Shown here: positions 23,430 through 48,281 of the stretch, piece after piece
Numbering within the stretch: the first letter of the stretch is position 1
Layout: the number at the start of each line of letters is the position of its first letter
NCBI GenBank assembly: GCA_021413865.1
Contig: JAIOPN010000012.1
Span: forward strand, 1-64,000
DNA from: Planctomycetota bacterium
GTDB lineage: Bacteria; Planctomycetota; Phycisphaerae; Phycisphaerales; Phycisphaeraceae
DNA length: 64,000 nucleotides
Reading direction: 5' to 3'
Translations under genes and position numbers: made by a program
Notes under the pieces: model-generated
The model's database searches: none
The model's input: only the letters and a program-made list of their open reading frames with translations
Told to the model about the DNA's origin: nothing

Positions 23430-25367
23430 ATGCGTTTAGAAGTTGACCCCGCGCTGACCCAGCGTGAGAACATCCCGACGGCGGTCTTCGACGACTCGAA
23501 GGAAGCCAGCCGCCACGTGGCCGGTGAGATCGCCGCGTTGATCCGCGATGCTGCCAAGAAGAAGCGTAAGTGCGTGCTGGGCCTGGCGACGGGTTCGACG
23601 CCGGTCGGCGTTTACGCCGAGCTGGTGCGGCTGCACCGCGAGGAGAAGCTCTCCTTCAAGAACGTCGTCACGTTCAACCTCGACGAATACTTCCCCATGA
23701 AGCCCGAGGCGCTGCAGAGCTACCGCCGCTTCATGAACGAGCACCTCTTCGACCACATCGACATCCCCAAGGCCAGCGTGCACATCCCCGACGGCACCGT
23801 GCCGATCGAGCAGGTGTACGCCAACTGCCAGGCGTATGAAAAGGCGATCGTCGCCGTCGGCGGGATCGACCTGCAAATACTGGGCATCGGCCGGACCGGC
23901 CACGTCGGGTTCAACGAGCCGGGCTCGGGCAAGAACTCGCGCACCCGCCTCATCACGCTGGACAAGGTGACACGCCTGGACGCCGCCGCCGACTTCTTCG
24001 GCGACGAGAACGTTCCCCGCCGCGCCGTCACCATGGGCGTGGGCACCATCCTGCAGGCCAAGCGGATCATCCTGATGGCCTGGGGCGAGCACAAGGCCCC
24101 GGTCGTCGCGCAGGCCGTCGAGGGAGAGATCACCGCCGCCATCGCCGCCAGCTTCCTCCAGGAGCACGCCAAGGCGGAGTTCATCATCGACCGCGCCGCC
24201 GCGTCGAGCCTCACGCGGTTCAAGACCCCCTGGCTCGTCGGCCCCGTGGAGTGGACCCCACGCCTCATCCGCAAGGCCGTCACCTGGCTCGCACTCCACC
24301 ACAAGAAGGTCATCCTCAAGCTCACCGACGAGGACTACAACGAGGCGGGCCTGCAGGACCTGCTCGCCGAGCATGGCCCGGCGTACAACATCAACATCGA
24401 GGTCTTCCGCGCCCAGCAGGACACCATCACCGGCTGGCCCGGCGGCAAGCCCGCCCCCGTCCGCCGCCCCAACGACCGCCGACGCGAGTCCGACGACATC
24501 TTCCCCAAGCGCGTCATCATCTTCTCGCCCCACCCCGACGACGACGTGATCTCCATGGGCGGCACGCTCCTGCGCCTGGTCGATCAGGGCCACGAGGTCC
24601 ACGTCGCCTACCAGACCTCGGGCAATATCGCCGTCTTCGACGCCGCCGCCATCCGCTTCGCCGACTTCGCCGCCGCGTTCAACCAGCAGTTCGGCATCGG
24701 CGGCGAGAAGGCGCTCAAGCTCGAGGGGCACATCGAGGACTTCCTGAAGAACAAAAGCCCCGGCCAGATCGACAGCGATGAGGTCCTAAAAATCAAGGGC
24801 CTTATCCGCCGCGGCGAGGCCCGCGCCGCCGGCCGGTACTGCGGCATCCCGATGGACCGGCTCCACTTCCTCGACATGCCCTTCTACGAGACCGGGCTGA
24901 TCCGCAAGAAGCCCATCGGCAAGCAGGACATCAAGCTGATCGCCGACCTGCTCGAACGCGTCAAGCCGCACCAGGTTTACGCCGCCGGCGACCTCTCCGA
25001 CCCGCACGGCACGCACCGCGTCTGCCTCGCCGCCATCCTCCAGGCCGTCGAGAAGGTCTCGACCCAGGCGTGGTCGAAGGAGTGCGAGCTCTGGCTCTAC
25101 CGCGGGGCGTGGCAGGAGTGGTCCCCGGACGAGATCGACATGGCCGTGCCGCTCTCCCCGCAGGAGGTGCTCCGCAAGCGCAGCGCGATCTTCAAGCACG
25201 AGTCGCAGAAGGACCGCGCCCTGTTCCCCGGCACCGACGTCCGCGAGTTCTGGCAGCGTGCCGAGGACCGCAACCGCAACACCGCGCAGACCTACGACCG
25301 CCTGGGCCTGGCGGAATATGAAGCCATGGAAGGCTTCGTCAAATGGCGGCCCGACCTCATACGGTGA
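23430..25367 (+). CDS. Glucosamine-6-phosphate deaminase (NagB) fused to PIG-L deacetylase
   Basis: 645 residues with two enzymatic domains. Residues ~15-280 are NagB-like: ATGSTPVGVY, FNLDEYF (D85) and GIGRTGHVGFNEPGS (H158, E163). Residues ~360-640 are a PIG-L/LmbE deacetylase with the zinc motif SPHPDDDVI and DLSDPHGTH. NagB converts glucosamine-6-P to fructose-6-P and ammonia; PIG-L enzymes remove N-acetyl groups, so the fusion could couple both steps. The NagB catalytic Asp (Asp141 in E. coli, normally DGH) is Thr156 here. Similar fusions exist in Bacteroidota and Planctomycetota. Confidence 0.9.
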   Translation: MRLEVDPALTQRENIPTAVFDDSKEASRHVAGEIAALIRDAAKKKRKCVLGLATGSTPVGVYAELVRLHREEKLSFKNVVTFNLDEYFPMKPEALQSYRRFMNEHLFDHIDIPKASVHIPDGTVPIEQVYANCQAYEKAIVAVGGIDLQILGIGRTGHVGFNEPGSGKNSRTRLITLDKVTRLDAAADFFGDENVPRRAVTMGVGTILQAKRIILMAWGEHKAPVVAQAVEGEITAAIAASFLQEHAKAEFIIDRAAASSLTRFKTPWLVGPVEWTPRLIRKAVTWLALHHKKVILKLTDEDYNEAGLQDLLAEHGPAYNINIEVFRAQQDTITGWPGGKPAPVRRPNDRRRESDDIFPKRVIIFSPHPDDDVISMGGTLLRLVDQGHEVHVAYQTSGNIAVFDAAAIRFADFAAAFNQQFGIGGEKALKLEGHIEDFLKNKSPGQIDSDEVLKIKGLIRRGEARAAGRYCGIPMDRLHFLDMPFYETGLIRKKPIGKQDIKLIADLLERVKPHQVYAAGDLSDPHGTHRVCLAAILQAVEKVSTQAWSKECELWLYRGAWQEWSPDEIDMAVPLSPQEVLRKRSAIFKHESQKDRALFPGTDVREFWQRAEDRNRNTAQTYDRLGLAEYEAMEGFVKWRPDLIR

Positions 25368-26284: not shown

Positions 26285-26313
26285 TTGGTCCCCCGGCTAT
26301 CCGACGCTAAAAT
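26285..26313 (+). promoter_or_regulatory. Candidate sigma-70 promoter of the cysE leader
   Basis: TTGGTC (26285-26290) and TAAAAT (26308-26313) are separated by exactly 17 bp, 70 bp after the preceding stop codon. Predicted transcription start is near 26320. Confidence 0.5.
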
Positions 26314-26319
26314 GCAGAT

Positions 26320-26538
26320 GTGACAAGTGAAGATTGCTTCTCGTCTGCGGGGTTCGACTAACGGTGAGTATATTTGCTCGAACCTTTAAGCACCCCAAAG
26401 GGAGCGAGCTTGGGCGCGATGGTCAAGCCACCATGAGTGGAAGGCCGGGACGACCCGACAACGCACCCACTTTAGTTTGGGGTTCGAGCAAATGCACCGA
26501 ACGGCCCGTGTGGATGGGGAGTGATCGCATAATGGAGA
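26320..26538 (+). ncRNA. Structured leader or small RNA upstream of cysE
   Basis: The gap between the epimerase and cysE holds a foldable RNA and no gene. A 13-bp perfect long-range stem pairs atttgctcgaacc (26372-26384) with ggttcgagcaaat (26481-26493). Inside it are a likely stem tgggcgcg/cgcaccca (one mismatch) and two hairpins, atggt/accat and cggg/cccg. A separate hairpin precedes it (gaag-attg-cttc within GCAGA/TCTGC). The strand ggggttcga occurs twice (26349, 26479) and gaacggcccgt twice (26499, 26537), allowing alternative pairings. It may be a cis-regulatory leader or an independent RNA of 6S type; I match it to no known family. Confidence 0.5.
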
Positions 26539-26572
26539 ACGGCCCGTCATATGGCGGGCCGTTTTTCTTTTG
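26539..26572 (+). terminator. Intrinsic terminator just upstream of cysE
   Basis: Stem acggcccg / cgggccgt with an 8-nt loop, followed by TTTTCTTTT-like run. It ends only 14 nt before the cysE start codon, which fits attenuation of cysE or the end of a separate RNA. Confidence 0.75.
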
Positions 26573-26586
26573 CCTACGATGACGCC

Positions 26587-27555
26587 ATGCCCGAGACACC
26601 CTCCAACAAAGACTCCCTGGCCGATTTGGTCAATCTCATCGTCGAGAGCTACCGCCGCGAGCCGGGGCTCCAGCACCTGGATTCCACCTTCCTCCCCAGC
26701 CGCGCCAAAACCATCCAGACCCTCGAGCTCCTCCGCCGTATCATCTTCCCGGGCTTCTTCGACGACCAGAAGCTGACCTCCGCCAACATCCACTACCACG
26801 TCGGCGAACTGCTGAGCCGGGTCCGGACGCTCCTCTACGAGCAGATCCGCGAGTCGCTCCGCTACGACCGCAACCGCAGCCACGGCGCCGGCGCGGGCGA
26901 CGCCTGCGACCAGTGCGACACCGAAGCCGAGGCCGCCACCCTCGCCTTCCTCCAGCGGGTCCCGGCGATGCGTCACCTCCTCGCCACCGACATGCAGGCC
27001 GGCTTCGACGGCGACCCCGCCGCCGCCAGCCTGGACGAGATCATCTTCTGCTACCCCGGCTTCGACGCGATCTTCATCCACCGCGTCGCCCACGAACTCT
27101 GGAAGCTCAGGGTGCCGCTCCTCCCGCGCATCATGAGCGAGTACGCCCACAACGAGACCGGCATCGACATCCACCCCGGCGCGACCATCGGTGAATCCTT
27201 CTTCATCGACCACGGCACCGGCGTTGTCATCGGCGAGACCACCACCATCGGCGACCGCGTGAAGATCTACCAGGGCGTCACCCTCGGCGCACTCTCGACC
27301 AAAGGTGGCCAGGCGTGGCGCGGCCGCAAGCGCCACCCCACCATCGAGGCCGACGTCACCATCTACCCGAATACCACCATCCTCGGCGGCGAGACCATCG
27401 TCGGCTCACGCTCGGTCATCAACGGCTCTGTCTTCCTCATCCACAGCGTCCCCAGCGACAGCACCGTCCGCGTCAAGCACCCGGAACCCGAAATCCAGTC
27501 CCGCCTCCGCGCCAAAAAAGGCGGGGCCATAAACGACGCGGGGCTGGACATCTGA
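26587..27555 (+). CDS. cysE: Serine O-acetyltransferase
   Basis: 322-residue left-handed beta-helix acetyltransferase that makes O-acetylserine for cysteine synthesis. The helical N-terminal domain (~190 residues) is followed by hexapeptide repeats containing [33 protein letters not shown] and [12 protein letters not shown]. The C-terminus reads [18 protein letters not shown]. This is the longer, EpsC/CysE-plus-N-domain form. ATG at 26587 has no visible Shine-Dalgarno and stands 14 nt after a terminator; the in-frame start at 26551 would lie inside the hairpin and is rejected. Confidence 0.9.
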
Positions 27556-30010: not shown

Positions 30011-30012
30011 TG

Positions 30013-30427
30013 GCGGCGTGGATTCGTAAGCCGAGTTCTGTCACCCGGGGGTTTAGCCCGGGCGGCGACCATTTCTCTGGGCCCGCCGTTGCCGACGGGC
30101 TCGAGCGACCTACCCGCCCCATGAGCCCCGGACCGGGGTCGCCCACGTAAGCGAACTCACGTGGGCTAGGGGCTGCTTGGCCTTGCACGCGGTGGGGCTT
30201 GCCATGCCCGTCGTGTCGCCACGCCGGCGGTGGTCTCTTACACCACCTTTTCACCCTTACCCCTCGGATCGCTCCGCGGGGCGGTACGTTTTCTGTGGCG
30301 CTGTCCCGCGCTCCGCCGTCTCCAGCAGAGCGGGTGGGTGTTACCCACCACCGTGTCCTGTCGTGTTCGGACTTTCCTCCCCCGCGGCCGTTTCCGGTCA
30401 CGGAGGCGATCGCCTCGTCCACGCCAC
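30013..30427 (-). ncRNA. rnpB: RNase P RNA
   Basis: On the minus strand the universal core gaggaaagtccga lies at 30379-30367 and the 3' signature agaactcggcttac at 30039-30026. The terminal P1 helix pairs GGCGTGGA (30425-30418) with TCCACGCC (30022-30015), which sets the ends. Other hallmark strings (acaggacacggtgg, ggtaacacccac, gggtaggtcgc, agagaaatgg) are in the expected order for a bacterial A-type ribozyme of ~415 nt that matures tRNA 5' ends. Confidence 0.95.
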
Positions 30428-34442: not shown

Positions 34443-34513
34443 TGACCCGTGGTGTAACGGTAGCACATCAGGTTTTGGTCCTGATTGTCTAGGTTCGAAT
34501 CCTAGCGGGTCAG
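34443..34513 (+). tRNA. tRNA-Gln (anticodon TTG)
   Basis: 71-nt cloverleaf: acceptor tgacccg/cgggtca, anticodon stem tcagg/cctga with loop TTTTGGT (anticodon TTG, reads CAA), T-arm with ggttcgaatcc. Discriminator G; CCA is not encoded. It lies 20 bp upstream of the GlmU-like gene and probably heads that transcript. Confidence 0.95.
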
Positions 34514-48207: not shown

Positions 48208-48281
48208 GGGCGATTAGCTCAGTTGGCTAGAGCGCACGGATCACACCCGTGAGGTCGCAGGTTCGAATCCTGTATCGCCCA
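48208..48281 (+). tRNA. tRNA-Val (anticodon CAC)
   Basis: 74-nt cloverleaf: acceptor gggcgat/atcgccc, D-arm gctcagttggctagagc, anticodon stem cacgg/ccgtg with loop ATCACAC (anticodon CAC, reads GTG), T-arm with ggttcgaatcc, discriminator A, no encoded CCA. Its last 14 nt belong to the 16-bp attachment core of the mobile element, so the insertion keeps the tRNA intact. Confidence 0.95.

Follow-up and report, generated by a model that had tools for sequence, protein, structure and literature searches.

The locus and its features

The stretch of DNA analysed here, referred to below as the window, comprises 64,000 nt (positions 1 to 64,000 of contig JAIOPN010000012.1, assembly GCA_021413865.1) from a planctomycete of the family Phycisphaeraceae. 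Between positions 26285 and 26586 it contains a promoter, a sequence able to fold into a long rod and an intrinsic terminator, after which cysE, encoding serine O-acetyltransferase, follows on the same strand (Table 1). A first-pass annotation of the region had offered two readings, an attenuation-type leader controlling cysE or an independent RNA of ca 250 nt, such as 6S RNA.

The promoter TTGGTC-17-TAAAAT described in that annotation is indeed present, and its −10 box can be aligned in about 25 of 30 relatives, where it mostly reads TATAAT and is preceded, at a distance of about 17 nt, by a weaker TTGG; in most relatives a TATAAT-like box lies about 15–25 nt upstream of the RNA. The transcript would be expected to start near 26320. 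At the other end, the terminator that had been placed ahead of the cysE start (ATG at 26587) is also found, and it carries compensatory changes in 9 of its 11 pairs across 27 sequences, the window's own and those of 26 relatives. In other words, the RNA has both a promoter and a terminator of its own, as a free-standing gene would, and both are conserved. A coding interpretation of the stretch was rejected: no reading frame is free of stop codons in more than 10 of the 30 homologues, and their lengths differ modulo 3. Homology of the downstream gene begins at 26587 and not at the upstream ATG at 26551; its best NCBIfam match scores 157.9 bits, which is under the cut-off of that model (210.65).

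Table 1. Coordinates, strand and basis of the features assigned at the 6S–cysE locus
Feature	Position	Strand	Basis
6S promoter: TTGGTC (−35) 26285–26290, 17 nt, TAAAAT (−10) 26308–26313	26285–26313	+	Sequence; relatives
Predicted 6S RNA (Rfam match 26339–26520)	26332–26526	+	RF00013, 62.4 bits; R1, 203.7 bits
Closing stem, 5′ strand	26332–26365	+	MFE fold; compensatory pairing across 30 species
13-bp stem, 5′ strand, beside central bulge; predicted pRNA template	26372–26384	+	Complementarity; consensus fold; pRNA analysis
Predicted pRNA, start opposite U26387, 5′-AAAGGUUCGAGCAA	26374–26387	−	GG at 4/5; A first
Central bulge, 5′ side (putative open-promoter mimic)	26385–26407	+	Largely unpaired in fold and consensus; Rfam alignment
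Apical arm with terminal hairpin	26410–26459	+	Compensatory changes in consensus pairs
13-bp stem, 3′ strand	26481–26493	+	Complementarity; consensus fold
Closing stem, 3′ strand	26496–26526	+	Duplex test; MFE fold
Intrinsic terminator of 6S gene: stem 26538–26561, U-run to about 26571	26538–26571	+	Aligned relatives
TACGAT, putative −10 box of leaderless cysE transcript	26575–26580	+	TANNNT conserved before ATG
cysE, serine O-acetyltransferase, separate downstream unit	26587–27555	+	Best NCBIfam match TIGR01172

Identification as 6S RNA

An Rfam search and a covariance model of the homologous regions had been suggested as checks in the first-pass annotation, and both point to 6S RNA. In a local E-value scan against Rfam, the RNA matches RF00013 (6S/SsrS) with 62.4 bits and an E-value of 3.8e-12, above the gathering score of 46.4, and the alignment spans the full model (positions 1–187). 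Relatives carry above-threshold matches to RF00013 at the homologous place, with scores of 69.2, 69.2, 63.8 and 57.3 bits, and genome G029 has one of 47.3 bits. Across the phylum, RF00013 finds matches in 85 of 199 genomes, 52 of these above the cut-off. The RNA at 26339–26520 is not reported when the whole window is scanned with Rfam at the gathering threshold, nor when the window's own genome is searched with RF00013, both with the default fast filters. Since its score exceeds the cut-off, the speed filters are most likely responsible for these omissions, such that standard Rfam annotation can miss 6S RNA in this group through filtering and not through score.

A covariance model built without Rfam from 30 homologues (R1) gives the RNA in the window 203.7 bits. 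It also returns a match of 24.4 bits on the minus strand at the same place, which is a palindromic echo of the rod. Moreover, R1 recognises five of eight RF00013 loci in other, more distant planctomycete families (E < 0.01), which makes the link between the family's RNA and RF00013 a reciprocal one. No convincing match is obtained when R1 is run on E. coli ssrS, and homology to the E. coli RNA consequently rests on the Rfam model. Many members of the family score under the RF00013 gathering threshold or do not appear among the matches listed. The missing match to E. coli ssrS and the weak RF00013 scores of several family members are what might be said for an unrelated, lineage-specific rod that only resembles 6S RNA. 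Against such a coincidence stand the full-length, above-threshold matches in the window's own genome and in several relatives, as well as the reciprocal recognition by R1, and we regard it as very improbable.

The same local scan also bears on the leader reading, in that the region matches RF00013 while no riboswitch or T-box comes near threshold. The remaining hits (ctRNA_p42d, Thr_leader, mir-980 and Guanidine-II) are weak, lie under their gathering scores and mostly describe the terminator hairpin; they were discarded.

Fold and compensatory evolution

The 271-nt stretch that includes the terminator folds with −120.9 kcal mol−1, as against −91.3 ± 5.1 kcal mol−1 for dinucleotide shuffles (z = −5.8); without the terminator the RNA still has a folding z of −4.5 against shuffles. 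The 13-bp long-range stem and the two inner hairpins of the first-pass annotation lie where that annotation had placed them, and ATTTGCTCGAACC (26372–26384) is perfectly complementary to GGTTCGAGCAAAT (26481–26493). The dominant feature of the fold is, however, an element absent from the earlier list, namely a closing (outer) stem of roughly 20 bp, formed by 26332–26365 with 26496–26526, outside the 13-bp stem.

This closing stem does not appear in an RNAalifold consensus derived from a sequence-only alignment, because MAFFT fails to align so fast-evolving a stem. Its conservation was for this reason assessed by a strand-swap duplex test. Over 30 species, the two strands of the same RNA pair with a mean duplex energy of −37.5 kcal mol−1, whereas strands taken from different species give −23.5 kcal mol−1; none of 10,000 permutations of the strands reaches the observed mean, and shuffled versions of the own strands yield duplexes of about −12 to −29 kcal mol−1. 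Such a difference is strong evidence that the closing stem has been conserved under compensatory evolution. Among the 26 pairs of the consensus fold derived from the family alignment, 12 carry compensatory changes on both sides. Covariation across relatives, the absence of which the first-pass annotation had named as a ground for refutation, is thus seen in the closing stem, in the consensus pairs and in the terminator, and the RNA has the rod expected of 6S RNA, with closing stem, central bulge and apical arm.

The overall emerging picture is that Rfam, the family covariance model, compensatory evolution and the conserved promoter and terminator all agree. On these sequence-based grounds the region is almost certainly a free-standing 6S RNA gene (ssrS), with a housekeeping-type promoter, an intrinsic terminator and a rod-shaped RNA, which bears out the second of the two original readings. 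In common with the 6S/SsrS RNAs of RF00013 (E. coli ssrS and B. subtilis 6S-1), it has the characteristic length, the three-part rod just described, the full-length match to the model, a GG at pRNA positions 4/5 (see below) and a gene of its own with promoter and terminator. It differs from them in a sequence so diverged that the default Rfam filters pass over it.

Relation to cysE

In 30 of the 34 family genomes with the RNA, that of the window included, the RNA is followed by cysE in the same orientation, and it was this adjacency, along with duplicated strands that could pair alternatively in the window's genome, that lent plausibility to a leader in which cysteine or a related signal decides between terminator and antiterminator. 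In this regard the RNA resembles T-box, SAM and other sulfur-related leaders, since it stands upstream of a cysteine biosynthesis gene and ends in a terminator; it differs from them in having no match to their sequence or structure and in not being tied to the downstream gene. The consistent cis position that a cysE leader would occupy is not found. In three genomes of the family (G021, G023 and G026) cysE maps to a different place from the RNA, and G003 has the two in divergent orientation, as a weak RF00013 match there also indicates. In the other families of the order the linkage is kept in G041, G044, G052, G053, G057 and G058 but not in G045 and G049. At those unlinked loci that were inspected, the RNA is still followed directly by the terminator, even where it precedes a different gene or where the next long open reading frame, picked mechanically as the longest, is convergent to the RNA (G021, G023 and G045). 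The unlinked and divergent cases, with the terminator retained, exclude an obligate cis-leader role.

Nor has a pair of alternatives been conserved in which terminator and antiterminator strands would exclude each other. The duplications noted in the first-pass annotation (ggggttcga and gaacggcccgt) do exist in the window, but distant relatives have lost or never had them, the closing-stem sequence being different there while the terminator retains CGGCCCG; hence they look incidental.

Furthermore, a putative −10 box of cysE itself stands after the terminator. The motif TANNNT is found 6–7 nt before the cysE ATG in 23 of 35 loci, whereas 2,000 shuffles give 1.0 on average and at most 5, the sample consisting of cysE homologues whose kinship somewhat inflates the result. 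It seems from the sequence that cysE has its own leaderless promoter between the terminator and the start codon, and a leaderless transcript of this kind would explain the lack of a Shine–Dalgarno sequence at the cysE start, a correct observation of the first-pass annotation. The one Planctomycetes species covered in PMC5397173 is reported to have few genes with Shine–Dalgarno sequences and to show a nucleotide bias of leaderless or RPS1 type.

Given the retained terminator, the divergent and convergent arrangements and the −10 box proper to cysE, the attenuation-type leader is refuted as a general explanation and is barely conceivable as a reading of this locus, and a false lead towards a cysteine-sensing leader is removed.

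A different question is whether transcription of the 6S gene also runs through the terminator into cysE, which would link polymerase sequestration to cysteine synthesis in most of the family. The same-strand adjacency, which most of the family retains and some genomes from other families of the order share, would fit this, as would the E. coli arrangement, in which ssrS is directly followed by fau. The strong, conserved terminator between 6S and cysE, the separate putative cysE promoter and the dispensability of the linkage all speak against it, and read-through appears unlikely. Still more doubtful is the idea of 6S and cysE as a pair conserved throughout this family, in which read-through or local effects on the polymerase would tie cysteine synthesis to growth-phase control of transcription. 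The neighbour of 6S differs from those of characterised 6S genes: E. coli has fau where cysE is found here, and in lactic acid bacteria the neighbour is rarA/uspA (PMC8414754).

Predicted product RNA and mode of action

In 6S RNAs the product RNA (pRNA) follows a rule by which GG occupies positions 4/5 or 5/6 (PMC8414754). By sequence comparison, the predicted pRNA of the present family has GG at 4/5 (from CC at 26383–26384) in all 30 homologues and A as its first nucleotide in 25 of them. In the window it would begin AAAGGUUCG opposite U26387. In four relatives it would start with AUCGG, the reverse complement of nucleotides 40–44 of E. coli 6S RNA, the pRNA of which starts at U44.

6S RNA is a widespread regulator that blocks RNA polymerase. 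Characterised 6S RNAs act as mimics of an open promoter that bind the housekeeping polymerase and are released by a short product RNA (PMC12005410, PMC8414754). Here the housekeeping-type promoter would yield an RNA of roughly 200–250 nt that ends at the intrinsic terminator and folds into the rod described above. By analogy with the characterised RNAs, this rod may mimic an open promoter and, as growth slows, bind the housekeeping RNA polymerase holoenzyme. The polymerase would then copy the 5′ strand from the position opposite U26387, such that the 13-bp stem opens and the RNA is released. Both polymerase binding and product-RNA synthesis are predicted here from the behaviour of known 6S RNAs.

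Distribution among relatives

The RNA is detected by blastn in 38 of 61 genomes, that of the window included, and by R1 in 52 of 61 related genomes, of which 51 have a single match. The additional match is in G017, which, besides a strong one, has a second and weaker match of 66.3 bits (L166; contig C312, 16575–16776, minus strand), either a paralogue or a contaminating contig. Five genomes of another family of the order, f2, which are 98–100% complete (G037, G042, G046, G050 and G054), have no 6S RNA recognisable by R1 or RF00013; R1 does find it in G058 of the same family. The five genomes of f2 without a match may have lost the RNA, or it may have diverged strongly in them.

Nothing on 6S RNA in Phycisphaerae was found in the literature searched apart from one comparative mention. 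No 6S RNA is reported for Thermogutta (PMC5673643), and in what the same paper relays of Wehner et al. 2014, it is absent from Pirellula staleyi and Rhodopirellula baltica. A clear 6S RNA is now placed in Phycisphaeraceae and related planctomycetes, within a phylum for some members of which absence had been reported.

Other features of the window

A plasmid search gave no match. Beyond the 6S locus, the window contains a bacterial class A RNase P RNA (30011–30425, minus strand, 241.7 bits) and two tRNA genes (34443–34513 and 48208–48281). At 23430–25367 it encodes a glucosamine-6-phosphate deaminase-like protein (NF002557, 1035.7 bits), the C-terminal region of which weakly matches BshB deacetylases.
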